Positions 439 to 51,821 of a stretch of 64,000 nucleotides of DNA are shown here, in pieces; the stretch's first letter is position 1, and each line of letters begins with the position of its first letter. The stretch covers positions 62,001-126,000 of the forward strand of contig NZ_PJBF01000040.1 in assembly GCF_002836505.1 (NCBI RefSeq). The letters run 5' to 3'. The translations under genes were made by a program, and so were the position numbers. This DNA is from Psychrobacter sp. Choline-02u-9 (GTDB taxonomy: Bacteria; Pseudomonadota; Gammaproteobacteria; Pseudomonadales; Moraxellaceae). A model generated the notes under the pieces. It was not told where the DNA came from. It saw nothing but the letters and a program-made list of their open reading frames with translations, and made no database searches.

Positions 439-473
439 CATACGTACCGCAGCATGTCGCTGCAGTACGTATG
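439..473. repeat. 15-bp inverted repeat upstream of the AlpA-like gene
   Basis: The left arm 439-453 (CATACGTACCGCAGC) and right arm 459-473 pair over 15 bp with one mismatch around a 5-nt loop. The right arm runs into the GGAG ribosome binding site (473-476) of the HTH gene starting at 484. It could be an operator bound by that HTH protein, or an RNA hairpin that hides the ribosome binding site. It has no T-run, so it is not a simple terminator. Confidence 0.6.
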
Positions 474-483
474 GAGAAATAAA

Positions 484-747
484 ATGAACGATCAATATAA
501 CGATAGTGACTGTAACGCGTCATTAAAAAACGAGTTAATAAGTACGTTACCTGCCCAGGGCATGTCACGAGCAAAAACCATACTTCCTTTTTTACCATTT
601 TCGAGAACGACTTTACATCAGTGGAGTCATGATGGTAGGTTTCCTGCCAGCATAAGACTGTCTCCAACCGTGGTGGCTTGGCAAAACTCTGAGGTTCTAG
701 CATGGATTGAGAGCCATTCTAAGTCTTCTAATGATAAGGAGGCATAA
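484..747 (+). CDS. AlpA-family / MerR-like helix-turn-helix protein
   Basis: A small DNA-binding protein of 87 aa. The C-terminal 55 residues have the AlpA (phage regulatory protein) pattern: LPFSRTTLHQW, then a short wing FPASIRLSP, then VAWQNSEVLAWIESH. AlpA proteins usually regulate excision or replication genes of prophages and islands. I chose ATG 484 because GGAG (473-476) lies 7 nt upstream; an ATG at 454 is in frame but sits in the loop of the hairpin and has no ribosome binding site. The gene ends 2 nt before the DUF3631 gene, so the two form an operon. The function is family-level inference. Confidence 0.72.
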   Translation: MNDQYNDSDCNASLKNELISTLPAQGMSRAKTILPFLPFSRTTLHQWSHDGRFPASIRLSPTVVAWQNSEVLAWIESHSKSSNDKEA

Positions 748-749
748 TC

Positions 750-2174
750 ATGAGTAAAAACAACAAAGTTACACCTCCTGAGGCAATTGATGAGCGATCA
801 GTTGACACAATAAAAAAGCCAAGCATCCTGCAAGATGCTCAGCTTTTAGAAACTACTACAGATGATATAGACCAGCCATCATCAGTTATTTTACCACAAG
901 AAAATTTAAAAATTAGCTCGGATTTAGCACAAACTACTATTGATAGACTTGCTACATTATCAGAACTCGACTATGAACTACAACGAACTGAAACTGCAAA
1001 GTCTCTTAATAATATGTCTGTTCGTTCACTTGACAAACTGGTTAAGAAAGCTAAAAGTAAAATAAAGTCTGAGACATCAGAAAGCTTGGTCGTTGATACT
1101 GAACCATATTCAGAGCCAGTGTCAGATATTGCTTCAGTAGCTGACCAAATTTATCAAATACTAGACGATCATATCGCTTGTACTCATGCAGTTAAAGTGG
1201 CTACCACGTTATGGATATTAATGACGTGGTTCATACCAGCAAGCCATATTTTACCCATTGCTTGGATAAATGCGCCTGAAAGACGCTGCGGTAAAAGCAC
1301 ACTACTGACATTAATGAGTAGGATGAGTAAAAGATCATTATCAACGTCAAACATTACAGGATCGGCATTATTCCGCTCAATTGAAAGTTATAAACCAACG
1401 CTTTTCATTGATGAGATTGATACTTTTATTAATGATAATGAAAGCATTCGAGGCGTTCTAAATGCGGGGCATAGTCGAGATAATCCGTACATTATACGCT
1501 GTGTCGGAGATGATAACGAACCTTTACTATTTAATGTCTTTGGAGCTAAAGCTATCTCCGGTATTGGCAAAATCCCTAGCACATTAATAGATCGATCAAT
1601 ACCATTGACTCTTCGACGTAAAATGAGAGATGAGACAAAAAAGCGAGTTCGTGATTTACCGCTTGACGTTACTAGCATGATTCAATCTCAGCTTGCTAGG
1701 TGGTCTGATGATAACCTGCAAGTAGTAAAAGATGCTAAACCAGTTTTGCCTGTTACGATCAACGATCGCGCGCAAGATAATTGGCAGATACTCTTTAAAA
1801 TAGCTATGATATTGAGTGATGACTGGCTAGAGAAAGCTCATAGAGCTTGCATCGAAATATCAGGTAGTGATAGCGATGAGCCCAGCTCAAATGAGCAACT
1901 ATTATCTGATATTAAAACCGTTTTTAGCCTAAATCAAACTAACAGACTCTTAAGTAGAGATTTATTAACTGAGTTACGTCGAGACCCAGAAATGAGTTGG
2001 TCAACATATAATGAGGGCAAAACAATTACACTTCGACAAATTGCAAAAAAACTGAGTGCATTTCGTATATCGTCTAGAGACCTACGAGCATTTGATATTA
2101 ATGGAAATGAAGTACGAGGCAAGGGCTACGACGTCCTTGACTTCCAAGATGCTTTTTCGCGTTATCTATCGTAG
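750..2174 (+). CDS. DUF3631 domain P-loop protein (island helicase/primase-like)
   Basis: A 474-aa protein. The N-terminal 130 residues are polar and probably disordered or helical. From about residue 135 on it matches DUF3631 proteins: a hydrophobic helix, a Walker A-like APERRCGKST (about 175-187) and a Walker B-like TLFIDEID (about 217-224), then a region ending with a small winged-helix-like domain (LLTELRRDPEMSW ... LRQIAKKL). DUF3631 is found in replication or primase-like proteins of plasmids, phages and genomic islands, where it probably acts as an ATPase on DNA. A strong GGAGG precedes ATG 750. It is cotranscribed with the AlpA-like gene and followed by a terminator at 2254. The exact enzymatic activity is unknown. 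Confidence 0.8.
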   Translation: MSKNNKVTPPEAIDERSVDTIKKPSILQDAQLLETTTDDIDQPSSVILPQENLKISSDLAQTTIDRLATLSELDYELQRTETAKSLNNMSVRSLDKLVKKAKSKIKSETSESLVVDTEPYSEPVSDIASVADQIYQILDDHIACTHAVKVATTLWILMTWFIPASHILPIAWINAPERRCGKSTLLTLMSRMSKRSLSTSNITGSALFRSIESYKPTLFIDEIDTFINDNESIRGVLNAGHSRDNPYIIRCVGDDNEPLLFNVFGAKAISGIGKIPSTLIDRSIPLTLRRKMRDETKKRVRDLPLDVTSMIQSQLARWSDDNLQVVKDAKPVLPVTINDRAQDNWQILFKIAMILSDDWLEKAHRACIEISGSDSDEPSSNEQLLSDIKTVFSLNQTNRLLSRDLLTELRRDPEMSWSTYNEGKTITLRQIAKKLSAFRISSRDLRAFDINGNEVRGKGYDVLDFQDAFSRYLS

Positions 2175-2666: not shown

Positions 2667-4316
2667 TTAGTGCATATTTGCATTCAATACTATAACCTCA
2701 TCGCTAAAGGTGTCTTGCGTAGCAATGCCTGCACATAAGATCGTGTAAACAGTACAATCTAGCAATGACTTCTTTTGTTTTAGCATTGTCTTAAAACTGT
2801 CCGAGATTTGACACAAACCATCAGTAATCATTAAAATATCTGCTTTTATATAATCCTCTGAGCTTTCTATAATATCTAGTGCACGAGATAAAGGAGTCTC
2901 AAAATCAGTACCTCCATTAAATCCTGATTGTAAAAAAATCAATAGCTCAGTAACCTCTTGACTGTCACTCACTACAAATTCAGATAGCTGTCCTTGGCTA
3001 CCAAACAGCAAAACATGTAAAGAGCGATTTTCTTTTTTAAGTATATTAGCACTGGCGACTAATAAAGCTTTTGCATATAGTAATGGCATTCCACTCATGC
3101 TACCTGATGTATCGAGACACGCTACCACAGGTCCTGTTGTTTTCTTATGAGTTTCCATGATTTCACCATTTATTAGACTTGTACCGCTCAACTCATAGGT
3201 TATTAGTTGCTTTTCTAGCATTCGCGAATAAAATAAATACTCAAGCGTCTCGTCTTCTAGGTTTACCAACTCAACGGGCAACAAGCGCAGCAGATCATCA
3301 CTAAGATGTGTACCATGCACCTCACTTTTACTCATCGAAGGTATTTTGCTCTGCTTTTTCTTTTCTTCGGAAATATGATTGCGGCCTAGCTTTTTTACTA
3401 GCTCCTTGATTTTTTCATTATCTTTTAGAGTCTGACTAAGCTTACTAATGTCAGTTTTAACCTCTTTTAATTTGGAATAGTTAAACCTAGCATCTGGGCA
3501 TAATGCTATCAACTCTTCATATTTTTTATAAGTTTCCTCAATATCTTGCATTAGCTCTTGATAGTTAACCAATCTTTTGAAGACTGAGTCAGGCAAATCC
3601 TCATCTGAAATCTCATCTAGATAAGCCTGAGTCTGTATTCGTTGTTCTTTTATATCATCGATACTTTGAGAGTTGAATTCCAAACTCTCAAAGTAGTCTT
3701 GATGAGCTTGCCAGTTTGGTTCAGGCTCGCTATCAGCATTATTATCCCAGTCCCACAGCAGCCACTTTTTTGTCCCTAGTTTTTTCCGCGCTGCATTTTT
3801 TAAAGCCTTTAATGTAGGCTCCCAAGTCTCTGATGGTAGCATTGCCATAAACGCATCTGTAAATGGAGCATTCGTAACGTTTGCTAGCTTCTGGTTAACA
3901 CATTTAGTAGAAAACTGATGACAGTTTTTTAGAATTAAATTGTACTGATACTCTTGTCCTAAGCAACTATAGGCAGCATTAGCGATACTAGTGTCACCTA
4001 CAGTCTCACTAATATCATTGCAAGAGACATAGATTTTTTTACCCAGTTTACTCTTACTTGTGAATTCTTCAGGATTATTAAGCAGTACTGTGCTTTTGGT
4101 AAATTTGTCCACTACGATATTAGCAATCTTACCTTCGCCAATGTATATACCAGAGTGCTCAACGGCAAACCATAAGTCACTATAAACCACACTGCCCGCT
4201 ATAGGCTCAACTTTTTGGCGAAAGGTACTATCAACAAAGTATTTGAACGTTTTTATACCTATTGGAAATGCAGCGTTTAGTAAACCCTGACCTTTGGCTA
4301 TCAGTGCTGTCAACAT
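2667..4316 (-). CDS. VWA-domain protein with N-terminal LRAT-like (NlpC/P60 fold) domain
   Basis: A 549-aa protein with three parts. Residues 35-135 resemble the LRAT-like permuted papain fold: a catalytic-type His in AVEHSGIYIG (about 54) and an NCHQF motif whose Cys (about 132) would be the nucleophile. Residues 200-330 are charged and helical, probably a coiled coil. Residues 395-549 form a von Willebrand A domain with the MIDAS motif DTSGSMS (about 402) and GGTDFETPL. Partners of MoxR ATPases typically carry such VWA domains. I chose ATG 4316 because AGGAAAG sits 8 nt upstream; a GTG at 4322 is too close to it. It lies 12 nt after the MoxR gene, in the same operon. A papain-like domain on a VWA partner is unusual and could be a protease or acyltransferase effector. 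That role is inference. Confidence 0.8.
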   Translation of the reverse strand: MLTALIAKGQGLLNAAFPIGIKTFKYFVDSTFRQKVEPIAGSVVYSDLWFAVEHSGIYIGEGKIANIVVDKFTKSTVLLNNPEEFTSKSKLGKKIYVSCNDISETVGDTSIANAAYSCLGQEYQYNLILKNCHQFSTKCVNQKLANVTNAPFTDAFMAMLPSETWEPTLKALKNAARKKLGTKKWLLWDWDNNADSEPEPNWQAHQDYFESLEFNSQSIDDIKEQRIQTQAYLDEISDEDLPDSVFKRLVNYQELMQDIEETYKKYEELIALCPDARFNYSKLKEVKTDISKLSQTLKDNEKIKELVKKLGRNHISEEKKKQSKIPSMSKSEVHGTHLSDDLLRLLPVELVNLEDETLEYLFYSRMLEKQLITYELSGTSLINGEIMETHKKTTGPVVACLDTSGSMSGMPLLYAKALLVASANILKKENRSLHVLLFGSQGQLSEFVVSDSQEVTELLIFLQSGFNGGTDFETPLSRALDIIESSEDYIKADILMITDGLCQISDSFKTMLKQKKSLLDCTVYTILCAGIATQDTFSDEVIVLNANMH

Positions 4317-4328
4317 TATCACACTTTC

Positions 4329-6734
4329 CTATAACCAGATATTTTGACTAATTTGTCGAGTTAGTAAGTCTTCAGTAAGCAATTTTTCTGTGGAACGCGC
4401 GTCAATTATCAAATTTCCAGTTTGCATTTGTAATACAGGACTATTTCTGTCATTATCCCAATACCATACACTTTCAAAGTCCCAATGTAGAGTGTTTTCA
4501 AAGTAGTTTTGAGTCAGTCTTAGCTTATCCATAGTTTCACCATTTTCCCCAGTGCTACTTCTAGCACCTGTCTGCGTACTGACAGAAATATTGCTTTTAA
4601 AAGTAGATTTTTCTGTATAACCTGCTATACGACTTTTGCGTCCTACATAAATCCCGTAATTACTAGGTTTCTTAAGTCTACAAGAGCCTAGTACACAGCC
4701 TTCCACTTTAGAGTCAAAACAACCAGACGCTATTCCTGACCACATCATACTGTAATTCATTACAACACCACGCTTTAAATCATGAGCAGTCACGAAGGTA
4801 TTTAATATATTACTACTTTCGAGATGACTAACCACAAGTCCTACATTTAAGTATTCGTCTGTATTATAGTTTCTATGTTGTATTTCGTTAGACTCAATAC
4901 CAAATAATTGATCAGGTAAATCATATTGTGATGAGTACCTAAGAAAGATATCTTCAGTTGTCTTTAGCAATACAAGGCAGTTCTCTATATGGCTTTCTAT
5001 AGCCGACTTGCCCACCAATACACTAAACGACTGACATTGTTTGAGTATGGCTTTTTTTAAATATAATGCTATGCTAAGTTCTGCCACGCTTAACTGAATA
5101 GTAGAGTCCGTTACTGTATGAGCTAATATTGATGAAGTGGAAGTACATTGATTTATTATAGAGTCTGATACTTTATAAGCCAATGCAGATGAGGTTTGAC
5201 AATTAGTAACTTTGCTTTTTTTAATATCCTTTATAAGATAGCTTATCTGCATGTTATGTTTATCATCAGATATGTTGTTTAGAACACTAACACAATCGCT
5301 CACAGTACTATCATACAAGTCTTGGCAAAGACAAAGATCTTCTAAGTTAATATTGAGTAAGTTTGAATTACCTTGAACTGATTCAAACAAATACTCGATT
5401 TTACTAGCTTCATACTTACTAGTTCCGTATCCATAAAGCATTTGGCTCCCTATTAAGGACGCAATTCCACCATCAACAGTAGTAATCTTATTTTTTCCTT
5501 TCTTATACTTAATAGTATGACCACCACCATCATAAGTACCAATAAAATTAATATTTGGCCAAGTATTTATTTCCGTACAATCTATATCGGTAGTTTGCTT
5601 AAAGTAGTAACCTTGTTGTCCAACGTCTTTTCGTTCAAGATCTAAAAGCTCTTCATAGTTACTAATTAGTATAGGATTGTTTTTTGTACCACTGCCTTTA
5701 TACCCTTTTATTAGTCTGGATTCAGCCGTGATATCTCGTTCGATATTTTGTGGTTTTTCAATTTTCTTCTGGCTATCTTTTGTAGAAATATCATTAGGCA
5801 TTACTTCAACAGTGCAGCTGTTTTTCTGAAGTACCTCAAAAATAAGATCAAATACAGCTTCTTTATTTTCAGGATGATTCCATAAGCTATCTTTGAGTAG
5901 CACTACATCGGATAGGTCAACCTCATAACGTCCATTACTGGCTGCAGATATACGTAACAGCTTAATGAGCTTCACTAGACGTCTATCTGACAAGCTTTCT
6001 CTACGATCTTCTGAAAATATCTCTCTATGCTTTAGCCATATATCTTGGACTACTCTAACGATCTGCGAGGCTACAATAACATCATCACTTCGCTTCGTTA
6101 ATTCTTTTATCTCATCCATACTAATACTTTCGACATTGCCATAATCACTATTTAGCTCGAATAGAGATGCGATATCATCTGGTCTTACATAATCAACGAA
6201 CTTTCTAATCAAAAATCTATCATACAGAGCATTCAGCTCTTCTTGTCCAGTAGGTAGCTCATTTGATGCCGCGATTAATGCTTGTAGTGGAACGGCACTC
6301 AGCGTAGCACCATTATGATATTGGCGTTCATTTAGGATAGTGAGTAGAGCATTAAGAATTGAAGAGCTGGCTTTAAATATCTCATCAAGAAAAGCAATCT
6401 GTACGGTAGGAAGATAGCCTGTAGTGTTACGCTTAAAGTTGTCTTTTTTAAGCTCAGATATGGATAACGGACCAAAAACTTCTTCAGGTGTTGAAAATTT
6501 TGTTAGTAAGTATTCAAAGTAAACTGGGCTAGCATCATGTTTGTCAGTAGATTGCAAACAGCCAGCAACACGACGTGCCAATAAGCTTTTTGCTGTACCT
6601 GGCGGACCTACTAATAATAAGTTCTCACCTGCCAGCAAGGTTAGTAAGGCGGCTTTAACTTCATTTTTGCGTCCTACCAGTCCATGGTTTAAATGCTCTT
6701 GCAATCTAATTATTTTATTTTTTAAATCTGTCAT
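4329..6734 (-). CDS. MoxR-family AAA+ ATPase with C-terminal GLUG-like beta-helix domain
   Basis: An 801-aa protein. Residues 1-290 are a MoxR/RavA-type AAA+ module: Walker A GPPGTAKS (43-50), Walker B FLDEI (115-119), sensor SNELP (157-161) and an arginine-finger region ALYDRFLIR (169-177). After a linker, from about 345 on, there is ISNYEELLDLE and TYDGGGHTIKY, then repetitive strand-rich sequence with many Cys/Ser/Thr, and near the end the GLUG-type closing motif WYWDNDRNSPVLQM. GLUG repeats are usually found in secreted adhesins, but there is no signal peptide here. MoxR ATPases act with VWA proteins as chaperone-like machines, and the VWA gene follows directly. The fusion is odd and may form a sensor. 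RavA-ViaA and MoxR-VWA conflict systems are the nearest known relatives. Confidence 0.85.
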   Translation of the reverse strand: MTDLKNKIIRLQEHLNHGLVGRKNEVKAALLTLLAGENLLLVGPPGTAKSLLARRVAGCLQSTDKHDASPVYFEYLLTKFSTPEEVFGPLSISELKKDNFKRNTTGYLPTVQIAFLDEIFKASSSILNALLTILNERQYHNGATLSAVPLQALIAASNELPTGQEELNALYDRFLIRKFVDYVRPDDIASLFELNSDYGNVESISMDEIKELTKRSDDVIVASQIVRVVQDIWLKHREIFSEDRRESLSDRRLVKLIKLLRISAASNGRYEVDLSDVVLLKDSLWNHPENKEAVFDLIFEVLQKNSCTVEVMPNDISTKDSQKKIEKPQNIERDITAESRLIKGYKGSGTKNNPILISNYEELLDLERKDVGQQGYYFKQTTDIDCTEINTWPNINFIGTYDGGGHTIKYKKGKNKITTVDGGIASLIGSQMLYGYGTSKYEASKIEYLFESVQGNSNLLNINLEDLCLCQDLYDSTVSDCVSVLNNISDDKHNMQISYLIKDIKKSKVTNCQTSSALAYKVSDSIINQCTSTSSILAHTVTDSTIQLSVAELSIALYLKKAILKQCQSFSVLVGKSAIESHIENCLVLLKTTEDIFLRYSSQYDLPDQLFGIESNEIQHRNYNTDEYLNVGLVVSHLESSNILNTFVTAHDLKRGVVMNYSMMWSGIASGCFDSKVEGCVLGSCRLKKPSNYGIYVGRKSRIAGYTEKSTFKSNISVSTQTGARSSTGENGETMDKLRLTQNYFENTLHWDFESVWYWDNDRNSPVLQMQTGNLIIDARSTEKLLTEDLLTRQISQNIWL

Positions 6735-6819: not shown

Positions 6820-6860
6820 CGTGACAACGTGACACGCTATTAGATACATATCTTTCAGCA
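6820..6860 (+). repeat. 42-bp repeat family, copy 2
   Basis: CGTGACAACGTGACACGCTA is followed by TTAGATACATATCTTTCAGC. The core CGTGACAACGTGACA is identical in the copies at 6904-6945 (reverse) and 7384-7422. It lies 86 bp upstream of the MoxR start, so it could also be an operator for that operon. Confidence 0.75.
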
Positions 6861-6903: not shown

Positions 6904-6945
6904 CAGCTGTATGCTATACAGTATATAGCTTGTCACGTTGTCACG
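6904..6945 (-). repeat. 42-bp repeat family, copy 3 (inverted)
   Basis: On the minus strand this reads CGTGACAACGTGACAAGCTA and then TATACTGTATAGCATACAGC. It faces copy 2 in inverted orientation, 70 bp apart, and is most similar to copy 4 beyond the core. Inverted iteron-like sites of this kind are typical for binding by a dimeric regulator or by a recombinase. Confidence 0.75.
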
Positions 6946-7383: not shown

Positions 7384-7422
7384 CGTGACAACGTGACAAC
7401 CCTTATACTCTATAGCATTCAG
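7384..7422 (+). repeat. 42-bp repeat family, copy 4
   Basis: CGTGACAACGTGACAACCCT then TATACTCTATAGCATTCAG. It aligns over about 40 bp with the inverted copy 3. It is the copy nearest to the tyrosine-recombinase gene (190 bp from its 3' end), a typical place for an attachment site. The 7423-7616 stretch to its right shows no gene. Confidence 0.7.
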
Positions 7423-7616: not shown

Positions 7617-10600
7617 CTAGTTTTTAAGTAGCACCATTAGTAAGCACCCCAAATACTTCAGCACCCCCGACGAAGCATAATAATCAACTGTCATAGCCAA
7701 ATTCTTATCAGACCACTTATGTTTTTTCTGTACCACCCTCACCTCATAGCCATGAAAATTTTGACGAGCTCCTTTCCTTATCTGACTATATAGACGGAGA
7801 TCCTTTTTAATATCTCGTACTGCTTGCTCGCTATGCGCCCTAACCTGCCAATGACTGGCATCAATAAGCTGACAACCAACTATCATGAACTCCTGTAGCA
7901 TTTTAAGCTGGGCCTCTTTCATACCGAAATGAATTGATGAAGTATTTAAATTGTTTTTATCTGCAAATATTTCCACGAACAATTTCAGTCTAGCAGGCTC
8001 ATCAATTGACATTTGATAAGCTCGATCAAGCGCTCTAACTAGAACCTCTTGGTTTTTATGTCCCGTTGGCGCACTTAGAAACAACCTATCATCGGTAAAA
8101 ACCTGACGAGCTTTATCGTAAACTTGTCTAGCTTCATTGATAGCGATCGCATGCCTTAGTGCGACCTCTTGCAACCGCTCAGCTCTTTTATCAATATTTA
8201 TATTTTGTAGCTCTTCTAACAGTGCAATGACATCATAAACTTTAGGATGAATAAATATAGACAGCTGAGTATCTACTGCATCATTTTGCGGGGCTTGCTG
8301 GCAAGCCATGTTAACTGGTGTGCTGTTATAAGAAAATAGAGAATCTTTGCTCGCAATCTTATTGGTTAAATAACCACGCATCTTATCAAGATAAACCTGT
8401 TTAGTACTAGCATTATATGCCCTGCCGTCTTGCCTATTCACTGTCTGGTAACCAATGCCAGTCACCATCTCAAATACGGTTATAGGCATAAAAAGTTTGG
8501 CTTGACTCATTTGCCAACCAGCCAGCAAATGAGCGGTATGGATATAATATTCAAACGTAGTATCTGGCGTTAGATGCCCAGCAAGACTAGCCAGCCCAAA
8601 CCATATCCCTTTTTCTTTATTATTAGAAAGCACAGCGCTAACAATAGCGTCGCTATGATCTCTATCATAATCTGTCATCACCTGCTTAAGTGGCGATCCG
8701 CTTAACACAAGTGCCAATTGAGTAATCGCAGTATGTCGAAAGCTATGAAAGGTAAAGTCATGTGTAATTAGCAATCTATCCCATATTATTTTCATCACAT
8801 TGCTGAAAAATACAGATGGTAGTGGTTGATCGCCTGACCCTTGTGAGAATAGATAAAGGCGCTTTAACCTTTTTTGTTGATAATAGAATGTGATGAACGG
8901 TTGCAACTCATCAGTCTGCAAAAGCTTGTCTATCGGTATTAATCTTTTGGCACTACTGCTTTTTAGCCGGCGATAGCGGTTAGGTTTGAGAATTATTTTT
9001 GGCATTTCAATCACTTGACCATTGATGAAACCTATATCTGTAATGTCTTTAACCTTAATACCAATAATTTCATTAATACGCATCCCTGTTCGATAAGCAA
9101 GCGCCAGTACAATGAAACATAGCTGCTTTTGTTCTATCTCTAACTCTGATGTTTGGATATAGCTTTTCATCGCTCTATACACGCGCGGTGATATCATTTC
9201 AGCTTTTACGACTTGCCGGTTACTACCCCATGGAAAATACACATAAGGTGCATCAAAGTGTATACGCTGATGATCATGAAATGCACGCAGACGCCCATAA
9301 GTAAATTTCTGGCTGTCTTTCAGGCGGTCAAGATGAGATAGCTGCTGACCAGTAGCATTGTTATCATTATCTATACCACTAGACGTATCATCAAACTCTG
9401 TTGATTTGCACAGTACAGACAATTTGCGACCATCTTTTACCTTACTTTGAATAATCTGCTCATAAACTTCCTCAAAGTCATTACCCTCCCACTGATCAAT
9501 ATCCTCATCCATTGTCAGCATCAACCAGTCACGACCAATACAGCCCACATATTTACTGATAGTATTAAGTCGAACGCTAGTATCATCTAGCAATGATAAT
9601 GCCCAGCTAAGCAAGCGTTGTGCATTAAGCTGGCTAGCATCTGTCTTTAATATTGTGATAGTAGAAATAGCAGCGCTTCTAGTCAATTTGAGCGCATCTT
9701 GCAGCTCTTTAATCAGATTTTTACTAAAACTAGGATAGTTTATGGTACTACTTTGGCTATCCGATTTTATCAATGATTGATAGCTGGCATCAAACAGCTC
9801 AGACCACTCGAGTGGCTCAGGACTTGGATTGATGAGCTCTCGGTTATAATGGATTAGCTTATCCGTAAACAAACCAGTGGTTTTAATATCACCTTGCTTC
9901 ACCACGGCTAGCGCCCCATCAATCAGGCTACCCTCTAGCTGTCGCCAGTGGTAGTTGGCACATTTGATGAGCAGTGAGTGCTGCGGGCGATCGATATCTT
10001 TATTGGTGAGTTTAAGTGTTTTCGAGATATCGTTGATGATGGTATTAAATGACTTTATCTTGGCAGTGTTTAACTCTTTATCCTTTAGAGCATATAAAAA
10101 ACACAGGCTCATATCATCGGGAACATAATCAACAAAACGGTGTAAGCTTTCGCTGTCATCTAGCGTAGTTCCATAATTATCATCACGCACTCTAAGCGGT
10201 ATTATAGCCAAACATTCTACTCTGCTTTTTTCATCAGTCGCTGGCATGTCAATCTGATAAATCTGACGCTCACCAAACAGCCAATCGTATAACGCTCTTA
10301 GTACCTCAATGTCATTAATACCACCATACATGATGCTGCAATACAGGAACCCCTCAACCAAGTCATTGACTGAAAAACGCCGCTTTCGTTGCCAAACCTC
10401 TATCGTTGTCGTACTACTGTCTGCCACAGCACGTCCATTCACAAACCAATCATAGTTAATGGTCAAGCGCTCACGAGTTGCAAGTATCGGTACCACAGGC
10501 TCATTAAGATATATCTGGTGAGTTTTATTATAATCACGAACAAACTCTAAAAACCCGCGCCGAGCCAATTGGAAGTTTTGAGCGGTATCGAACTTCTCCT

Positions 10601-10781
10601 CTAGCAACTGGTTAATTGCTTCATAATGATGCTGCAGCTCACAAGGCGGCTGCATGGAATTTTGATTGATATATTCTTCGATTAATTTTTTAGCATCACG
10701 CTTAACACTTTTTTTGGATTCTTCTCTATTAAGCTGTCGCAGTTTATGAGCGCTAATATTATCCATATAGACGAACCTCAA
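7617..10781 (-). CDS. Very large tyrosine recombinase (phage integrase family)
   Basis: A 1054-aa protein whose central part is a tyrosine recombinase catalytic domain: YRTGMRINEIIGI with the first Arg (about 568), a Lys-bearing beta region, HSFRHTA (HxxR, about 679), LAGH (about 740) and a Tyr in FEYYIHTAHLL (about 748). All catalytic residues are present, so it should cut and join DNA. The long N-terminal region (1-540) and the 280-residue C-terminal extension, with basic helices, exceed the usual 300-450 aa. Its start overlaps the 770-aa gene by 23 bp. The three-gene order resembles the integrase operons of integrative elements with several tyrosine recombinases, such as the intA/tfp/intB type. 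I am not certain it belongs to that family. Confidence 0.85.
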   Translation of the reverse strand: MRFVYMDNISAHKLRQLNREESKKSVKRDAKKLIEEYINQNSMQPPCELQHHYEAINQLLEEKFDTAQNFQLARRGFLEFVRDYNKTHQIYLNEPVVPILATRERLTINYDWFVNGRAVADSSTTTIEVWQRKRRFSVNDLVEGFLYCSIMYGGINDIEVLRALYDWLFGERQIYQIDMPATDEKSRVECLAIIPLRVRDDNYGTTLDDSESLHRFVDYVPDDMSLCFLYALKDKELNTAKIKSFNTIINDISKTLKLTNKDIDRPQHSLLIKCANYHWRQLEGSLIDGALAVVKQGDIKTTGLFTDKLIHYNRELINPSPEPLEWSELFDASYQSLIKSDSQSSTINYPSFSKNLIKELQDALKLTRSAAISTITILKTDASQLNAQRLLSWALSLLDDTSVRLNTISKYVGCIGRDWLMLTMDEDIDQWEGNDFEEVYEQIIQSKVKDGRKLSVLCKSTEFDDTSSGIDNDNNATGQQLSHLDRLKDSQKFTYGRLRAFHDHQRIHFDAPYVYFPWGSNRQVVKAEMISPRVYRAMKSYIQTSELEIEQKQLCFIVLALAYRTGMRINEIIGIKVKDITDIGFINGQVIEMPKIILKPNRYRRLKSSSAKRLIPIDKLLQTDELQPFITFYYQQKRLKRLYLFSQGSGDQPLPSVFFSNVMKIIWDRLLITHDFTFHSFRHTAITQLALVLSGSPLKQVMTDYDRDHSDAIVSAVLSNNKEKGIWFGLASLAGHLTPDTTFEYYIHTAHLLAGWQMSQAKLFMPITVFEMVTGIGYQTVNRQDGRAYNASTKQVYLDKMRGYLTNKIASKDSLFSYNSTPVNMACQQAPQNDAVDTQLSIFIHPKVYDVIALLEELQNINIDKRAERLQEVALRHAIAINEARQVYDKARQVFTDDRLFLSAPTGHKNQEVLVRALDRAYQMSIDEPARLKLFVEIFADKNNLNTSSIHFGMKEAQLKMLQEFMIVGCQLIDASHWQVRAHSEQAVRDIKKDLRLYSQIRKGARQNFHGYEVRVVQKKHKWSDKNLAMTVDYYASSGVLKYLGCLLMVLLKN

Positions 10782-13071
10782 TTTGTTTTAAGTGAAGATC
10801 TGTAGCGATCGCATCTAAATGAGGGCTGAGCTGGTGCAGCTGATTGATAGAGCTTGATGACATCGGGTGCATGAACTCCTGATCAGGATGCTCGTGACCG
10901 TAAAGCGCGCAAATTAGATAGTCAGGTACGCGCCCTGTGAGCATAGTTCTCAGCTGATGACGCAGCCAATTATCCTGATGACTAAAAAAGTCTTGCAACT
11001 GATAACGGACTCGGCTTGGCGTAATACTGGCGAAGCCTTTTGGGTTTTTTTGGTAAATTTGAATGAGGGGTTGTTCTGATTGCAAGATGGCATTGATGGG
11101 ATAAGGCGCTGCTGGACATAATGGATTATAGATAGCGGCAAATTGTTTAATATAAATAATGTAGTTTTGAATAGCCGTTATCAAAAACTTACTAAGAGGA
11201 ATGAGCCTGCCATCAGACTGCGCATGACGCTCTTCTTTGTCAGACACCCATAGCATGCACCGCTGAAAGTCAAACTGGTGTAGCAAGCCTGGTGCGTGCT
11301 TGACTGGGCGAATACCAGTTTGGATCATAACAATATGCCACAGCCAAATACTATAGCTATTAAACTGCGCAATGTAGCGATCCATGTGGGATTTTAGCTT
11401 GCCATTAAAACTCTCGGCACTGACAGCCAGTTGATTAAAGAACTGCTGGCACATTGTGGTCTTTAGCACCATATCGCTACCAATGTGGCTTCTATGCCCG
11501 TTCATCTGTACGCTACACTCATCTATTAAAAGTGCTTTTTGCTCATCATTGCAGTATTCAGTTATCAGCTCTGCCGCTTTTATATAAGTTTGCTCTAGCT
11601 CTACCGTTTTAGTGCTAAGGTAATACAGCGCAGAGCTATGCCGTACATCAACACCTGTGATCAGGTCAGCATATAATGGCTTATTAAGCTCGTTTTTGAT
11701 CAATATAAACAGGCCTGCTTCAATATACTGAGGACTCAGTGCTGGCAGGTTAAGCAGATCTTTAGCATAAGAGATAGCGTCTTTAACAGTATCGGATGAA
11801 ACGGTAATTTTATCCTCAAGCATAATCTGTAAAGCTTCAGGAATTGCACGATAAAAGGTACTGCCATAGCTTTGTCTGTGGGCAAGCAGATGACTTCGAG
11901 TATTGGTCGTCACATCAATCATGATGGCAATGCTACTAACTTTACGGACACGGTCATAAATGAAATACCTCCGTTGACTAAGACTACATTGCCAATCAGC
12001 AATGATGCTATCGATACTAAGTCCACTTAATAGTGACAGTAGTAAGACGACATACCCAGTGCCACTTTCTTTATCAACACTCATAAAGCGCTGCCAAAGC
12101 GTGGCAAATAACATTTGGTATCCGGTAATGCTTAGCTGACGATGATTGGTTGGGAAATGAAATTGATTACGGCGGGCATGTTGATGGTTATTTTTCAATC
12201 GCCATTGCTGCAGCTCAGAGGATTTAGCAATTTGTGTGGCTGGCTTAAAGTCATTGTCTAGCAAAGGTACTTCGTTGTCATCAGCAATATTTTCAGCGAT
12301 TGCCACGTTACTGTGCTTTTTTGATTGTTTCGTACCAAACACTATACTTTGTAGTGGCTCATTGTCAGTATCCACTAATGTCTTGATGACGGTTTGAGCC
12401 GACTTTACGCGTTTAGTACTCTCAGTATAAGTTTTGCCAACAAAGGTTTTATTATTAATTACCACCTCATAAGCCAGCCTGATTTGACCTATTTTACTAC
12501 CAAGATATTGGTTCGCTGTTTTACCTGTTGCCTCTCTCTGTTTAACGCTTGCTTCATATTGTCTGATATAAGATAAGCATGAGGACAAGCTATCGCACTG
12601 ATCGTGAATACTGATTAACTGGTCGAGAATCTCACACTGCGGATCAGTAGGTCTTAGTGCCATACGAATACGCACGCCAAGCTTATCAATTTTAGCAAAG
12701 TGCTTGTCATGGCGTGCTGTGATCATAAATATAATTTTTAAGTAGCCGCTCATAAACCGCCAAGCATTACTGTTAATATCAACTTTTCCATACGTCTGAT
12801 AAAAGACAATTAGCATATAGCTGACCGCCCACTCTCCAGTTTTACCTTCCCGAATAATTTGTGTCATTACCTCAGTGCAGTTTATGCCAGTAAAGTCTTC
12901 AAAATTAGACTCTAGTGTTGAGAGCAATAAATCAATATCATCATCTGGTACTAAATTAATCACATCAATCATAAGCTGAGACATTTGTATGTGATGTGGT
13001 GAACCTACTGGGATAAGCTTATCAAACACTCGCCTATCGATTACTTCATTAAATAATTTAGTGTGAACCAT
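10759..13071 (-). CDS. Degenerate tyrosine-recombinase-fold protein
   Basis: A 770-aa protein. The C-terminal third keeps pieces of the tyrosine recombinase fold: IQTGIRPVKHAPGL (Arg I), a segment LRHQLRTMLTG with H..R, and LYGHEHPDQEFMHP with a Gly-His. The position of the catalytic Tyr seems to be replaced (FMHPMSSSS), so it may bind and bridge DNA rather than cut it, acting as a partner of the 1054-aa enzyme. The N-terminal 500 residues are helical and show no family I recognise. It overlaps the upstream 189-aa gene by 14 bp and the downstream recombinase by 23 bp, so translation is probably coupled. Loss of the Tyr is read by eye and needs structural confirmation. Confidence 0.7.
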   Translation of the reverse strand: MVHTKLFNEVIDRRVFDKLIPVGSPHHIQMSQLMIDVINLVPDDDIDLLLSTLESNFEDFTGINCTEVMTQIIREGKTGEWAVSYMLIVFYQTYGKVDINSNAWRFMSGYLKIIFMITARHDKHFAKIDKLGVRIRMALRPTDPQCEILDQLISIHDQCDSLSSCLSYIRQYEASVKQREATGKTANQYLGSKIGQIRLAYEVVINNKTFVGKTYTESTKRVKSAQTVIKTLVDTDNEPLQSIVFGTKQSKKHSNVAIAENIADDNEVPLLDNDFKPATQIAKSSELQQWRLKNNHQHARRNQFHFPTNHRQLSITGYQMLFATLWQRFMSVDKESGTGYVVLLLSLLSGLSIDSIIADWQCSLSQRRYFIYDRVRKVSSIAIMIDVTTNTRSHLLAHRQSYGSTFYRAIPEALQIMLEDKITVSSDTVKDAISYAKDLLNLPALSPQYIEAGLFILIKNELNKPLYADLITGVDVRHSSALYYLSTKTVELEQTYIKAAELITEYCNDEQKALLIDECSVQMNGHRSHIGSDMVLKTTMCQQFFNQLAVSAESFNGKLKSHMDRYIAQFNSYSIWLWHIVMIQTGIRPVKHAPGLLHQFDFQRCMLWVSDKEERHAQSDGRLIPLSKFLITAIQNYIIYIKQFAAIYNPLCPAAPYPINAILQSEQPLIQIYQKNPKGFASITPSRVRYQLQDFFSHQDNWLRHQLRTMLTGRVPDYLICALYGHEHPDQEFMHPMSSSSINQLHQLSPHLDAIATDLHLKQIEVRLYG

Positions 13072-13627
13072 AAGAAGTTTCCATCCAACTCAGGTTTTTG
13101 GGCAGCCCCAGCATCACCTCATCATTGGCTAATTTACACTGCTGATACTCATAAGCACTTTGGCTGATACCAGCGAACCTACAATAATTGTCTACCGTCA
13201 GGCGCTCAATATTCATGAGTTCGCAAATAATACTTTTTGGTGCACTATTACTGATTGCCTTAAAAAACTCAGGATGATTAATTCCCCTTGAGAAGGCTAG
13301 CTCGATCACCTCACTCCAAGCTAAGCGCTTAATATCTCTCAGGCTTTCAGCAGCAACTAAGCAAGGCTGACGTGAACTAGTCTCTTCTATTAGAATTTCA
13401 TCAAACCTTCTAAACTCATTAAAAAAATAATAAGTCGAATCTTTACCAATCACCAATCGTAGCGGTGGGCGGTAATAATCATCCAAGCCACCTATATTTA
13501 TACTAGCTATTCTTGGCCTAAATTGATGCCATATCAGCAATGCCTTTTGCGCATCTTGATGAACAACCAGATTATATTTACTGAAAGTTATAAACTTCTG
13601 AGTAGGTTTTAGATGAATATCATTCAT
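13058..13627 (-). CDS. Accessory protein of the recombinase operon (unknown fold)
   Basis: A 189-aa protein at the head of the recombinase operon. Its first 90 residues look like a small beta-rich domain (LVIGKDSTYYFFNEF). The second half contains helices with a possible helix-turn-helix (SIICELMNIERLTVDNYCRF, then AGISQSAYEYQ), suggesting DNA binding and perhaps control of site choice. Operons with several large tyrosine recombinases often carry one such small accessory gene. The family is not recognised. It overlaps the next gene by 14 bp. The 240 bp upstream hold an AT-rich promoter-like stretch and the terminator of the XRE gene. Confidence 0.6.
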   Translation of the reverse strand: MNDIHLKPTQKFITFSKYNLVVHQDAQKALLIWHQFRPRIASINIGGLDDYYRPPLRLVIGKDSTYYFFNEFRRFDEILIEETSSRQPCLVAAESLRDIKRLAWSEVIELAFSRGINHPEFFKAISNSAPKSIICELMNIERLTVDNYCRFAGISQSAYEYQQCKLANDEVMLGLPKNLSWMETSYGSH

Positions 13628-13757
13628 TTTAATACTATTAATAGTGAAATATATTCATCATAATATGTTATAACTTATTGTTTGTAAAGCCTTTAATATT
13701 GCTGTTATATTTTTATCTTTGGATAACTCAAATACTGATTCATAACCATTTCTTAGA

Positions 13758-13816
13758 CAAAAAAATACTCCCTAACCCATGATAAATAAAGGCTAAAGAG
13801 TATTTTAAAATTTCAA
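13758..13816 (-). terminator. Terminator of the XRE regulator gene (minus strand)
   Basis: On the minus strand AAAATACTCTTTAGCC pairs imperfectly with GGTTAGGGAGTATTTT and is followed by a run of seven T. It lies 55 bp beyond the stop of the small XRE gene and separates it from the recombinase operon. Confidence 0.6.
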
Positions 13817-13870
13817 TTTTAGTTGGGTGAGAAGGTTAACGTTTTATATCAGTCCACCTTCCTATCAAGC

Positions 13871-14089
13871 TTAGTTCTCTTCATTCTCATCGGGAACATA
13901 CTTTAAAACATCCCCTGGGGTGACTTTTAATACTTGGCACAACTTACTCAAGGTATCGAATTCTATGCGAGTTGTCTCATCGTTATAAATTCTATGAAGC
14001 GTTGACTTGCTGATGTCTGTCATTCGTACTAAATCTGCAACTCGCAATCTTCTTTCTGCTAAAAGCACTGGTAGATTACATGAAATCAC
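13871..14089 (-). CDS. XRE/Cro-type helix-turn-helix regulator
   Basis: A 72-aa protein that is nearly all one HTH domain of the Cro/C1 (HTH_26, YozG-like) type: LLAERRLRVADLVRMTDISK, STLHRIYND, then FDTLSKLCQVLKVTPGDVL. Such regulators repress neighbouring mobile-element genes, often including their own. A near-palindrome (14104-14126) lies directly upstream and is a good operator candidate. The gene is read away from the Cys-rich gene at 14340, so the two may share control. It has its own terminator, so the recombinase operon is transcribed separately. Confidence 0.85.
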   Translation of the reverse strand: MISCNLPVLLAERRLRVADLVRMTDISKSTLHRIYNDETTRIEFDTLSKLCQVLKVTPGDVLKYVPDENEEN

Positions 14090-14103
14090 AATAAAATCCT
14101 TAT

Positions 14104-14126
14104 TGGTAAGTAAAAAATACTTGCCA
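14104..14126. promoter_or_regulatory. Candidate operator of the XRE regulator
   Basis: TGGTAAGTA (14104-14112) and TACTTGCCA (14118-14126) form a 9-bp inverted repeat with one mismatch around AAAAA, 15 bp upstream of the XRE start codon. The position fits autoregulation by the XRE protein. This is inferred from position and symmetry only. Confidence 0.45.
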
Positions 14127-14339
14127 GTGACTACTTTTCTGTTAAAATAATACTCGTTGGCAATAACTAAGTTTCCGTCAAAAACTATTTTGTGCTGACT
14201 AACGCTTTATTATGTCATAGACTCATCTTGCTGCTCAATAGCTGGCTAACTATGATGGGTGCGACTTGTTCGACAGATATAGTCACCATAAAAATGTGAT
14301 ACTAATCATAGTCATTCTGCCATTAAAAAGGAGTATGTT

Positions 14340-14660
14340 GTGGGCATCAGGATTGAATGGAGCATGACACAAAATGCTTGGGACAAACGGGTCTGTGAAG
14401 ATTATTGGGCCTATAATCATAAAATCAGCTATGTAGATTATGTACGTATGCTTTGTCAAAAATACAATATTAGCTCGCAAATATTATTTGAAACTATAAG
14501 CCAATGCTATGCTTGCTTAGATGATGTTTGCTGTGAATATTGTGGTAGCGCCTGTCCAATTGAAGTACCTGCTGATATCGCCTATATGCGGGCAAAAGAG
14601 AGTTGGTTTTGTGCAGTATGTGAGCATGCTATGTGGAGAAGTGACTTTATTAGCAAATAA
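14340..14660 (+). CDS. Small Cys-rich, probably zinc-binding protein
   Basis: A 106-aa protein starting with GTG; AAGGAG lies about 8 nt upstream. It has a helical N-terminus (WDKRVCEDYWAYNHKI) and two Cys knots, CCEYCGSACP (about 63-72) and CAVCEHAMW near the end, which together can hold one zinc ion. No clear family is recognised. Small zinc-ribbon proteins of this kind occur in mobile elements of Moraxellaceae as regulators. It lies between the XRE regulator and the HsdR remnant and has no cotranscribed partner. An ATG at 14364 is an alternative start without a good ribosome binding site. Confidence 0.55.
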   Translation: MGIRIEWSMTQNAWDKRVCEDYWAYNHKISYVDYVRMLCQKYNISSQILFETISQCYACLDDVCCEYCGSACPIEVPADIAYMRAKESWFCAVCEHAMWRSDFISK

Positions 14661-15132: not shown

Positions 15133-15408
15133 TGTGTGCTTATTAGTCTTTAAACAGCTCGCTAGTGCTAAATCTCACTGACGATTACGCTTTTGGGAAA
15201 ACTATTTTATGGATCAAGTAGTAATTTCTTAGATGCTTATAGCCTTGTTAACGAGGGTTTAAGATTATTATTGTGATGAATAAATATCGATAATGATTAG
15301 ATATAGGTAGTAGAAAAAAAGATGCTAACGATATATACGGCATATTGCTATCACCCTTTTTGGGTTCGGAAGTTTACTCAGGCGAGTTTGTCAAAATTGG
15401 GGTTTGAG
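15125..15408 (+). repeat. Long repeat A, copy 1 (about 280 bp, pair with 35747-36029)
   Basis: From TTTATCATTGTG to GGGGTTTGAG this noncoding stretch is about 90 percent identical by eye to 35747-36029. It includes AGTAATTTCTTAGATGCTTA, TAGCCTTGTTAACGAGG and a hairpin region around TATATACGGCATATTG. It truncates HsdR at its left end and an IS256-family transposase at its right end. Its last 34 bp (15373-15406) are boundary repeat R2. Confidence 0.9.
15373..15406 (+). repeat. Module-boundary repeat R2
   Basis: TTTACTCAGGCGAGTTTGTC followed by AAAATTGGGGTTTG is the right end of long repeat A. The transposase fragment begins immediately after it. Confidence 0.7.
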
Positions 15409-15733
15409 CACTTTGATGAGGTATGGGGGGGATGAGTATCCGCATGTGGTTAAGTCTTGGCGCAGCAATTGGGAGGGCTTAACGGTGTTCTTCGAGTATT
15501 CTAAAGACATCAGAAAAGCAATTTATACCACCAACGCTATAGAATCACTGAACAGTGTGATTCGGACAGCGGTGAATAAGCGTAAGGTGTTCCCATCTGA
15601 TCAGGCCGCACTCAAGGTGCTGTACTTAGCCACCCAGCGGGCATCCAAAAAATGGTCGATGCCAATTCGTAACTGGACGGCTGCTCTTAATCGTTTTATG
15701 ATTATGTTGATGACCATATTAGCAGGCATTTAA
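15404..15733 (+). pseudogene. IS256-family transposase, C-terminal remnant
   Basis: The fragment encodes the C-terminal part of an IS256/MULE-type transposase: VKSWRSNWEGLTVFFEYSKD, IYTTNAIESLNSVIR, FPSDQAALKVLYLA, then the stop. Full proteins have about 400 aa and this is 109. The 5' part is missing at the junction with long repeat A. A run of seven G at 15425-15431 shifts the frame relative to the expected FDEVWGDEYP, a one-base insertion. The element's right inverted repeat follows. The fragment cannot be active. Confidence 0.85.
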
Positions 15734-37621: not shown

Positions 37622-39691
37622 TTATTTTTTAAATATATCTACTCTAGTCTCTACACATTTTCGTAATAGTACATTATTACTACCGATACCAAATAAGCTG
37701 TCAGGTTTTTGATAAAAATCTAACCCTCTGTCAATCTTAAAAACCCATCCATTATCTATGATAATTTCATTATCATGCAGCATGTGCTCATTGATCTGTA
37801 CTTCAAGCTCAATATCTATCTCCATTAAACTCTGCTGAAGCTCATTCAATCTACCTGACATCTTCCTAACATCAGTATCTTCATCATAAGTAGTAATCAA
37901 CTTTATTTTCTTAATGTTTTGTATGCTGATTACAGCTTCACAGAAACGTACAAAATTTTGTATTTGATGAGTCTCGCGAATAAAAGGATCTTTGACTTCA
38001 ACTGATTTCGCACCTTGTAAATAAGGACTAAAAATTGTCTCGTAGCTATAACCTGTGGCTCCGTAGTGAATTGTAAAATGCTGCTCAGTCAATTCTTTGA
38101 CAAGAGTTTCTGTAATATAAGGTTCAGCAGCTAATTCAGAGCTAACGTGCTCAGCTTTATGAGTAGGTAAAGTGGATAAAGAGCTATTAATTTCACTATC
38201 TGCATGGATGTTCTTTCGTTGAGGATTCTGAGTAGCATGCGCATCTTTTGATTCAGGACAATAGATTATGACCTCTTTACCCGTCGAATCAAAATAAGAT
38301 AAATTTATCTTCGCAAACTCATTATCTGATTTCCGCTTATTCATTTGCTCTTTTACGCGACGACGTGCCTCTATAGCATAGCTTACATACTCTTCAAACT
38401 CTTTATCGGTTGGCGGAGCACTAGGGTGTAAGATTTTTAGAAACGCAGCAACAGTCTTTTTAATACCTTTCTCATCGCGGCCTTCGACCGCACTACCCAG
38501 CTTGATACGTCTACTCACCTCTTCATAGCGGTTGGTTTGCTTCAGCTGATAATGAAAAGCTTCGGCTAAGTAATCAGTAATGAAACCATAGTTACTAGTT
38601 AAGAACTCACTACTATTCTTAGGCATTTCCCAGCCCGGTAAATAAAATGCAAATCTGTCCATTACCGCTAAATCAAATTCTTTAGGCAAAGGCTGAAATA
38701 AATCATAAACTTCCGAGTTTACAATTTGCTCGACAGACAAATCCAGATTACCAACGAATGCCATAGAAGCATCAGCAATGACTTCAACTCCTCGTGAGAA
38801 CCTTCCATTCGCCATGAAGTCTTTCATGATCTGAATAGTATCTTGGTCCTTAACCTTAATGCCTCCGACTTCATCGAATGCCACCGTATCCCAAAAACCA
38901 ACCAGACCAATTTTTTTGCGCTGGTTATTGTAAAATAGCGTTGCCTTAGTAGCTTGACCGCCACTAATCAATGTTGAGTAAGGAGAAAACTCACTAAAGA
39001 AGTAAGATTTACCAGTGCCACGTGGGCCAAGCTCAATGAAATTAAAGTTAGGTTCAACCAGAGGAAGCAAACGTGCAATAAAATGTATTTTTACGCGCGG
39101 GCTCAGCTTATCTGGCTCTAATCCGACAGTTCGTAAAATGAAACTCATCCATTCATCACGACTACACTCCTGCCGACCTTCACAGTAATGTTCAAAATTA
39201 AACCGACTAAGCTGTATGGGACGTAGGTCTTCGATATAAAAAGTATAATCATCTTCTTCTATTTCGTTATAGGCAATAGTAACTTCAGCCCATAACCCAC
39301 CCTGTAATAATCGATCATGATCACGATAGAATTTCTCGCTAATAGCTACTTTCCTAGAATCAAAGTTCTCTAAGGCTGCCCAATGTCTACGATCTTTTTC
39401 ACTATAATTTACATGTACCTTATCAATAAATCGGTATTTACCTTTGGTCGCTACTTTAGATTGTGCCATGTTCGATTCATTAGGGCGCACATAGTTATCA
39501 TTCAGTGTCTCTAAAACCGCTTCCATACCTGCTTGGATCTCAGCTTCATCATCACTAGCACAGTAACGTGCCAGCAAAAACTCAAGAACAAAAGTAGGAA
39601 CGTTGGTCCCCTTTTTTATTCTATGTACTAGATCTTTTCTGACCACTTTTCCATCAAACAATCTATTTAACTGTGTATCTAAAGCGTCCAT
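37622..39691 (-). CDS. brxL: BREX protease/ATPase BrxL
   Basis: A 689-aa protein, last gene of the BREX operon. The N-terminal domain is followed by an AAA+ core with Walker A GPRGTGKS (222-229), a Walker B-like TVAFDEVGG (about 272), and FVGNLDLS (about 314). The C-terminal third (about 560-689) is the Lon-like region. BrxL proteins form ATP-driven ring assemblies and are required for phage exclusion in type I BREX. The length fits the family. It starts 3 nt after the pglZ stop, so they are coupled. It looks intact. Confidence 0.93.
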   Translation of the reverse strand: MDALDTQLNRLFDGKVVRKDLVHRIKKGTNVPTFVLEFLLARYCASDDEAEIQAGMEAVLETLNDNYVRPNESNMAQSKVATKGKYRFIDKVHVNYSEKDRRHWAALENFDSRKVAISEKFYRDHDRLLQGGLWAEVTIAYNEIEEDDYTFYIEDLRPIQLSRFNFEHYCEGRQECSRDEWMSFILRTVGLEPDKLSPRVKIHFIARLLPLVEPNFNFIELGPRGTGKSYFFSEFSPYSTLISGGQATKATLFYNNQRKKIGLVGFWDTVAFDEVGGIKVKDQDTIQIMKDFMANGRFSRGVEVIADASMAFVGNLDLSVEQIVNSEVYDLFQPLPKEFDLAVMDRFAFYLPGWEMPKNSSEFLTSNYGFITDYLAEAFHYQLKQTNRYEEVSRRIKLGSAVEGRDEKGIKKTVAAFLKILHPSAPPTDKEFEEYVSYAIEARRRVKEQMNKRKSDNEFAKINLSYFDSTGKEVIIYCPESKDAHATQNPQRKNIHADSEINSSLSTLPTHKAEHVSSELAAEPYITETLVKELTEQHFTIHYGATGYSYETIFSPYLQGAKSVEVKDPFIRETHQIQNFVRFCEAVISIQNIKKIKLITTYDEDTDVRKMSGRLNELQQSLMEIDIELEVQINEHMLHDNEIIIDNGWVFKIDRGLDFYQKPDSLFGIGSNNVLLRKCVETRVDIFKK

Positions 39692-39694
39692 ACA

Positions 39695-46236: not shown

Positions 46237-46246
46237 CTGTTTTTCC

Positions 46247-49906: not shown

Positions 49907-49946
49907 TATATATCCCTAAGTAAATCTCATTAATTAAGCCAGATTA

Positions 49947-50558
49947 TCAGCCGCCTACATGTACTGAACGGTAGTTACCATCTTCCGGATAAAACCCTAA
50001 AAATTTAAGTTGGGTTTTACCTGTCCTCATACCTGGATAAAAAAATATAGTAGGTACATGAAATTTACCTTGAAGTTGGCTTTCCATAGACCCTATACGG
50101 AGATAAGGATGAAGTGCTTCAATATCTGACACTAATAAAATTGAGTTTGGCCTACCTTCAAGGTCGAATAACTTAGCTTCAAGCTTATTTTGTAATGCGT
50201 TTTTTTTGGTAAGTGCTTCTGCTAATGATTTATTGGTTTTTTGCCACTGCAAGCCTATATTTTCTGCTGAGTCTCTATTCTCAAGAGCCGCTGAATCTTG
50301 CTTTTCCCAGGTTTTCTTAATGAAAACAGGCATTTCATCAAAGACTTCTTGTACGGCTTTAGCCATGGAGAAAATATGGACATCCCAACCTTCATTTCGA
50401 AGTTTTGCTGCCCATGCAGGAAGCTGACGCTTTATTTTCAATATTTTTTGTGGATCAAAGATCAAATAAAAGATAGGCTCGAAGCTGGCATGCCCAAACT
50501 CTCGGCCTGCTCTTACTCGCTCCATTAACTCATTAAAATCAGTATTGAGCGATGACAT
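49947..50558 (-). CDS. brxB: BREX protein BrxB (DUF1788)
   Basis: A 203-aa protein with the DUF1788 pattern: ERVRAGREFGHASFEPIFYL, FDPQKILKIKRQLPAWAAKL, SILLVSDIEALHPYLRIGSM and VPTIFFYPGMRTGKTQLKFL. BrxB is a small helper of type I BREX with an unclear mechanism. Its start overlaps the end of brxA by 20 bp, so translation is coupled. Confidence 0.92.
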   Translation of the reverse strand: MSSLNTDFNELMERVRAGREFGHASFEPIFYLIFDPQKILKIKRQLPAWAAKLRNEGWDVHIFSMAKAVQEVFDEMPVFIKKTWEKQDSAALENRDSAENIGLQWQKTNKSLAEALTKKNALQNKLEAKLFDLEGRPNSILLVSDIEALHPYLRIGSMESQLQGKFHVPTIFFYPGMRTGKTQLKFLGFYPEDGNYRSVHVGG

Positions 50559-51333: not shown

Positions 51334-51821
51334 TACGCTTCCTTCATATAAGGAAAGCTTTTATAGCCTTCTTTAAAGGCATTAAGATAGTGCCTCGCTG
51401 CTACTTTCAGCATAAGCTCTAAACCCTCATCATTAAATACACCTATATTGACAGGCCCTTCAGACTTTTCAACTTCACTGTAAACCAGCTGTTCCAATGC
51501 TTCAAAAGCACTATCTTTACTTATCAGTCTTTCTTTCATATCGATATTTTGCACTGCTTTGGAAACTTCTCTTTCAAGTGAGTCTGGTAGCCTGTATAGA
51601 TGGTAGTTTTCACCTACACCGATATATTCATCGTGTACCAATAATGCTGCCTCACACACTCCATGATACTGCGCTAACAGCATTGTTCTAGGATATGGAT
51701 ACATAAGGAAGGCTGGACTAGATGCACCGAGAAAATTACTTCCCCACCAATCAAATTGACTCTTTTCACCCAGATAGCCAATTAAAAATCGATAATTTAA
51801 TACTAAGTCTACAATTGGCAT
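51333..51821 (-). CDS. BrxE-family protein, first gene of BREX operon
   Basis: A 162-aa protein with the BrxE-family look: YRFLIGYLGEKSQFDWWGSN, FLMYPYPRTMLLAQYHGVCE, and HDEYIGVGENYHLYRLPDSL. BrxE was first named in BREX type 6, but similar genes also open some type I operons. It overlaps brxA by one base, so it belongs to the operon. The 540 bp upstream are AT-rich, hold no gene and are the natural place for the operon promoter. Assignment is by pattern; the role is unknown. Confidence 0.75.
   Translation of the reverse strand: MPIVDLVLNYRFLIGYLGEKSQFDWWGSNFLGASSPAFLMYPYPRTMLLAQYHGVCEAALLVHDEYIGVGENYHLYRLPDSLEREVSKAVQNIDMKERLISKDSAFEALEQLVYSEVEKSEGPVNIGVFNDEGLELMLKVAARHYLNAFKEGYKSFPYMKEA

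Follow-up and report, generated by a model that had tools for sequence, protein, structure and literature searches.

What three overlapping genes, two of them encoding oversized recombinase-like proteins, might do for the mobile DNA that carries them is the question raised by this locus of Psychrobacter sp. Choline-02u-9, which we analysed within a 64,000-nucleotide stretch of DNA (the window). All three open reading frames lie on the minus strand and encode, in order of transcription, a small protein of 189 aa without a known family in family scans (S, 13058–13627), a recombinase-fold protein of 770 aa that alignment and profiles showed to lack the canonical tyrosine and HisII (T, 10759–13071) and a large tyrosine recombinase of 1054 aa with a TTG start (L, 7617–10781). 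The S and T genes overlap by 14 bp and the T and L genes by 23 bp, and the ORF coordinates thus agree with the initial annotation of this operon. Because the ORF of one relative (L074) starts at that point, L may instead begin at the ATG at 10766, five codons on, which would yield a protein of 1049 aa and an overlap of 8 bp. The description of all three products as tyrosine-recombinase-type proteins held for L and T but was unsupported for S by any test made, as neither Pfam, NCBIfam nor the profile tests revealed recombinase similarity in S. No Pfam or NCBIfam family was found above cut-off for S or T, and S, T and L returned no PADLOC lines.

The L protein matched PF00589 at residues 535–701 (E 9e-11, above cut-off), placing about 530 residues N-terminal to the recombinase domain, close to the 540 first claimed. 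The complete catalytic set (R568, K607, H679, R682, H736 and Y746) was invariant in all 16 aligned rows, and a PDB sequence search with L led to integrases, while its extensions outside the domain matched nothing tested by profile. Judged from these residues, L is predicted to be able to cut DNA, and it is the sole subunit of the trio shown to retain every cutting residue.

For T the only Pfam line lay at E 0.07, and a PDB sequence search gave chance-level lines only. Its last 235 residues nevertheless matched a profile of ordinary integrases (13 sequences, two of them present twice) at 96.5% and E 8.5e-10, a score equalled by none of 60 column shuffles. In an alignment of 24 rows, R588, K612, R704 and H726 (ArgI, Lys, ArgII and HisIII) were retained throughout, whereas HisII was never present, being replaced by N, D or Y in every row, and the nucleophile position was occupied by F, A, L, I, M, V or C. 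A nearby tyrosine was missing in 22 of the 24 rows, the two relatives with a tyrosine near the canonical place being L084 and L039. The C-terminal part of T thus matches the recombinase-domain profile, but T does not carry the complete catalytic set. The profile match and the alignment bear out the earlier suggestion that the 770-aa protein keeps pieces of the fold and seems to lack the tyrosine, and the canonical place revealed no recognisable tyrosine. From these residues, T would be unable to cut through its canonical domain.

As Y484 of T is invariant in all 24 rows, the nucleophile may be displaced to another position in the protein. This residue lies within a second, degenerate recombinase-like region: the middle of T (residues ~285–535) scored 33.8% (E 4e-4) against ordinary integrases, with none of 60 column shuffles equally high, which is suggestive only of such a region. 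The regions designated A1nt, A2nt, A2nt2 and A2ct scored at most 0.2% against the same profile. Compared as whole profiles, T and L showed no significant match (2.6%), and their recombinase domains scored 11%. Both structure models were of low confidence (mean pLDDT 34.7 and 38.1), and that of T was unusable for judging its fold.

Besides Psychrobacter, the recurrent family of T-L pairs is represented on Acinetobacter plasmids and in a small number of other Gammaproteobacteria. Relatives of T were present in 25 of the 57 genomes searched, all 25 of them within the genus, and, class-wide, in 9 of 369 genomes at E <= 1e-6, the window's own genome being counted in both cases. Among 72,556 plasmid records, 258 contained T relatives (252 of them from Acinetobacter), none of which covered 80% of T, and none of 50,697 phage records matched L. 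In 46 of 49 T-bearing loci L lay directly downstream of T, and in 34 of the 49 an S-type gene lay directly upstream of it, four places being counted twice in both tallies. The genome from which the window derives contains four T-L operons of different clades, one T fragment and one operon resembling GInt. At locus L080 we observed an operon copy in which the T and L frames are broken into pieces.

Two layouts were distinguished: S-T-L, as in the window, and that of the C19 clade, in which a canonical integrase of ~390 aa precedes T, L and a small gene. In that clade the canonical integrase was upstream of T in all seven loci, at a distance of 1.31 kb or less in six of them; in the seventh, L123, T is split in two pieces. 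The C19 small gene, sought in all but one of the seven loci, gave a profile that did not match S (1.7%). The T and L proteins of the window group matched the C19-clade profiles at E 1.9e-26 and 3.6e-49, respectively, in a comparison from which the C19 clade's own row was left out.

The trio has neighbours on both sides. Upstream of it are a small HTH-like (XRE-like) protein of 72 aa, named by eye (13871–14089, minus strand), and a cysteine-rich protein of 106 aa that looks zinc-ribbon-like by eye (14340–14660, plus strand), which are 40% and 45% identical, respectively, to proteins encoded beside the C19 operon. A transposase remnant, IS256-like by eye, lies further upstream at 15404–15733, and related DNA occurs in several relatives. 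On the other side, family scans identified a VWA/LRAT protein and a MoxR/RavA-like ATPase that are probably island cargo (2667–6734, minus strand), the LRAT match of the VWA protein being barely above cut-off, and an AlpA-like gene (by eye) with a DUF3631 gene belonging to the surrounding island (454–2174, plus strand). Immediately past the L stop, loci L068, L078 and L079 contain a 9-bp repeat, TTTTGTCAG, in 8, 2 and 5 adjacent pairs, respectively. Locus L069 and the loci L071/G030 have common DNA downstream of the L stop, with an intervening piece of ~70 bp in the former versus ~945 bp, including a gene of 177 aa, in the latter.

A further gene run at 37622–51821 of the window resembles a BREX defence cluster by eye, and in L116 a CRISPR-like array adjoins the trio, ~0.9 kb and further upstream of it. 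With BREX-like (by eye), restriction, toxin-antitoxin, Fic, HipA and MoxR-VWA genes among its neighbours, the trio could itself be a defence system. However, mobile genes are common in such islands, S, T and L matched nothing in PADLOC, and L has an intact recombinase active site, and we regard a defensive function of the trio as highly improbable.

The surrounding island encodes its own integrase of 392 aa, located left of the window (C3:60138–61316, on the contig whose positions 62001–126000 form the window) beside a 49-nt copy of tRNA-Met, the intact tRNA-Met being at C3:8360. An integrase of the same 50%-identity cluster was found near an intact tRNA-Met with the trios of L068, L075 and L079. 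A window-clade trio in genome G009 is accompanied by a 488-aa integrase of another cluster, and in G019 a 490-aa integrase occurs in the same genome region as the window-clade trio. In the closed genome G035, a 51-nt tRNA-Gly copy precedes the trio by ~350 bp, with the intact tRNA-Gly 66 kb away. Some trios at least thus ride in tRNA islands bearing their own integrase, although an integrase was not seen in many of the trio stretches examined.

We considered whether partial tRNAs beside trio loci could be insertion sites of the trio itself; in G035 the tRNA-Gly site was credited to a canonical integrase of 419 aa because it lies close to the intact tRNA-Gly. In the c751 loci, an 18-nt tRNA-Gly-like core was present at the left edge in all four members whose edge was covered (exact in three, with 2 mismatches in one), and in L110 it can also be read as a coding start. 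Some matches of 13–15 nt to tRNAs beside trio loci are probably due to chance. Three tandem TGTCAC motifs in the window (~7385–7398, 6931–6944 and 6821–6834) were read as repeats of the island, and TGTC-type tandem repeats were rejected as trio sites because similar pairs in G009 adjoin the DUF3631 gene, 15–16 kb from the trio. A scan for pdif sites by their arms found one in the scanned sequences, at 551 in L082, away from the trio edges. In the loci examined, neither ends, a recombination site, an empty site nor a circle could be assigned to the trio itself.

The edges of homology between related loci raised another explanation, in which the ~7 kb spanned by the cysteine-rich gene and L (7617–14660) would be a small mobile element in its own right, nested inside larger islands and ending at or near the stops of its outer genes. 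Of 136 window-clade pairs, in which three places were counted twice, 111 lost homology between -60 and +100 bp relative to the L stop (21 pairs extended further and 4 stopped earlier), as did 20 of 27 c56 pairs (1 extended and 6 stopped earlier). On the other side, window-clade homology often ended at the stop of the cysteine-rich gene, and differing DNA follows the same trio clade downstream, as a nested element would predict. However, the edge was seen in just 6 of 15 c3b pairs (0 extending, 9 stopping earlier), 3 of 9 c751 pairs (0 and 6) and 4 of 9 c19 pairs (2 and 3), the remainder mostly stopping earlier, and no terminal repeats or motif were found at the trio block in Psychrobacter loci. 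Trio-less loci found via a neighbour gene yielded no clean pair with and without the trio, because the DNA past the neighbour gene differs from that past the trio. Moreover, in a control of 11 loci without the trio, homology broke off just as sharply at the stop of a neighbour gene that has no relation to the trio, so ordinary shuffling of islands may suffice to produce such edges. These results leave the nested element, in our estimation, a doubtful explanation.

On Acinetobacter plasmids, many of which carry relatives of the trio, some alongside resistance genes, the trio unit has a start sequence in common with two cargo units, and the block of cargo and trio unit was recovered with at least 80% query coverage in 143 of 345 matching records. 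This common start hints at stepwise addition of cargo at the trio, in the Acinetobacter lineage only. In loci L103, L104, L106 and L107, a 48-aa ORF occurs in tandem, in varying copy number, to the left of the trio block, with a spacing of ~343 bp in L106 and close to repM in L104. The Acinetobacter GR13 plasmid pDETAB5 carries an S-T-L operon with an L of 1064 aa adjoining fic, and additionally encodes an integrase of 399 aa. A tyr13 gene has been described on Acinetobacter GR13 plasmids (PMC9455709), and from the portion of that description available to us, either the 1064-aa L or the 399-aa integrase of pDETAB5 may correspond to it.

Replication or partition genes lie beside the set in several of the Acinetobacter records, the window has a primase-like DUF3631 gene and repeats nearby, and the C19 clade places a canonical integrase before T and L. 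These associations are consistent with an upkeep module that would resolve dimers of islands and plasmids or aid their resident integrase or replicon. Three genes and 6 kb would, however, be large for a resolution system, whose site was not found, and we consider this role quite unlikely.

Tn554 and RIT elements also have several recombinase genes in a row. Both are also named in PMC10214605, which describes strand-biased circularizing integrative elements (SE) with the genes intA-tfp-intB-srap. According to that source, the strand bias was established by experiment, the circle forms without an empty site, the ends are terminal inverted repeats with a 6-bp spacer, and Tfp has a recombinase fold but is said to be without catalytic residues. 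The trio resembles SE in its overlapping operon, large recombinase, recombinase-fold partner and small protein, and the C19 clade further does so in having a canonical integrase in front, whereas the window has the order S-T-L without intA, which differs from the SE order. The proteins also differ in size, T and L having 770 and 1054 aa versus 508–581 and 681–720 aa for Tfp and IntB in the five SEs used. In profile tests, T scored 0.1–0.9% against Tfp, L 2–8.5% against IntB and S 0.1% against Srap, none of which is a match, in a test limited in reach because the SE profiles had five rows each and Tfp itself scored just 0.6% against ordinary integrases. The 84–92% obtained for L against the SE IntA profile, from the same five elements, is expected for an active recombinase. 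An SE-type terminal motif was present in none of the Psychrobacter loci, unit starts in common being seen only on the Acinetobacter plasmids.

The GInt elements (ginABCD) likewise combine several recombinase-like genes with a small protein, and in these elements (PMC5385486) GinC too is without a catalytic residue and the stop of the final gene marks the start of the cargo. They differ in having three recombinase-like genes with the small gene last, where the window has two with the small gene first (PMC5385486). The same genome contains an operon encoding proteins of 414, 817, 702 and 170 aa (G000:C71, L042 6949–13260), which we named GInt-like from its gene order only. The trio gave no profile match to the one GInt-like GinC named in this way, but a T relative of the C56 clade had a weak BLAST match to it (E 0.009). 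We located a presumed gamma-mobile-trio (GMT) of 441, 908 and 200 aa with model NF040692, which we take to be GmtX. The window trio had no profile match to this single presumed GMT trio, S scoring 0.2% against the presumed GmtX. The GMT of Mahata et al. (2024) is, as a later paper describes it, a trio likewise linked with defence cargo.

Since its plan is like that of SE and GInt but the profiles of Tfp, IntB, Srap and the one GInt-like GinC went unmatched, we filed the module as a member of neither. It is without a family name in Pfam, NCBIfam and PADLOC, and the comparisons with GInt and GMT, of one example each, were thinner than that with SE; no paper among the literature matches listed was recognised as describing the T-L family, nor did placement in a known family with ends inside the window emerge. 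The initial annotation had proposed a multi-recombinase module that drives an integrative element and circularises it. The module does sit in integrated DNA and shares the plan of circularising SE and GInt, but the driving and circularising parts of that proposal were unsupported, as Tfp, IntB and Srap gave no profile match and the island has its own integrase and a tRNA-Met attachment copy.

Our preferred explanation is that the trio forms an accessory, heteromeric site-specific recombinase in which one recombinase-fold subunit cuts and the other does not. For it speak the gene overlaps, the adjacency of T and L, the intact catalytic set of L, the integrase match of T, the canonical integrase of the C19 clade and the recurrence of the family; against it speak the failure to find a site, empty site or circle, the islands' own integrases, the lack of a profile match between T and L, and the replication or partition genes next to the set on several Acinetobacter plasmids, where it may instead take part in plasmid upkeep. 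We place its probability at about 0.5, slightly lowered because the edge control and the weak GinC match were weighed again. S, T and L would work as one recombination machine, in which L would do the cutting and S would be a helper. Because T keeps four of the six catalytic residues and is missing the canonical nucleophile, it would most likely bind one arm of the site and shape the complex. The set would serve integrative islands and plasmids as an accessory and would most likely excise, integrate or resolve its carrier DNA, by analogy with SE and GInt modules, with the island, the trio or neighbouring cassettes as candidate substrates.

If the arms of a site were divided between L and T, exchange would be limited to a single strand at each site. 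Two versions of how such a complex might work can be suggested, tentatively and with low expectation. L might occupy one arm and non-cutting T the other, so that a single strand is exchanged and host replication finishes the reaction, or the active site of T (R588, K612, R704 and H726) might accept the tyrosine of L in trans. In Flp, the tyrosine is donated in trans. If true, either the one-strand or the in-trans design would explain strand-biased circularisation. Multi-recombinase modules, whose cargo includes defence and resistance genes, pose the question of why partners unable to cut are needed. A family that pairs a complete recombinase with a partner retaining four of six catalytic residues and missing the canonical nucleophile may bring this question within reach of tests on two proteins and a helper.
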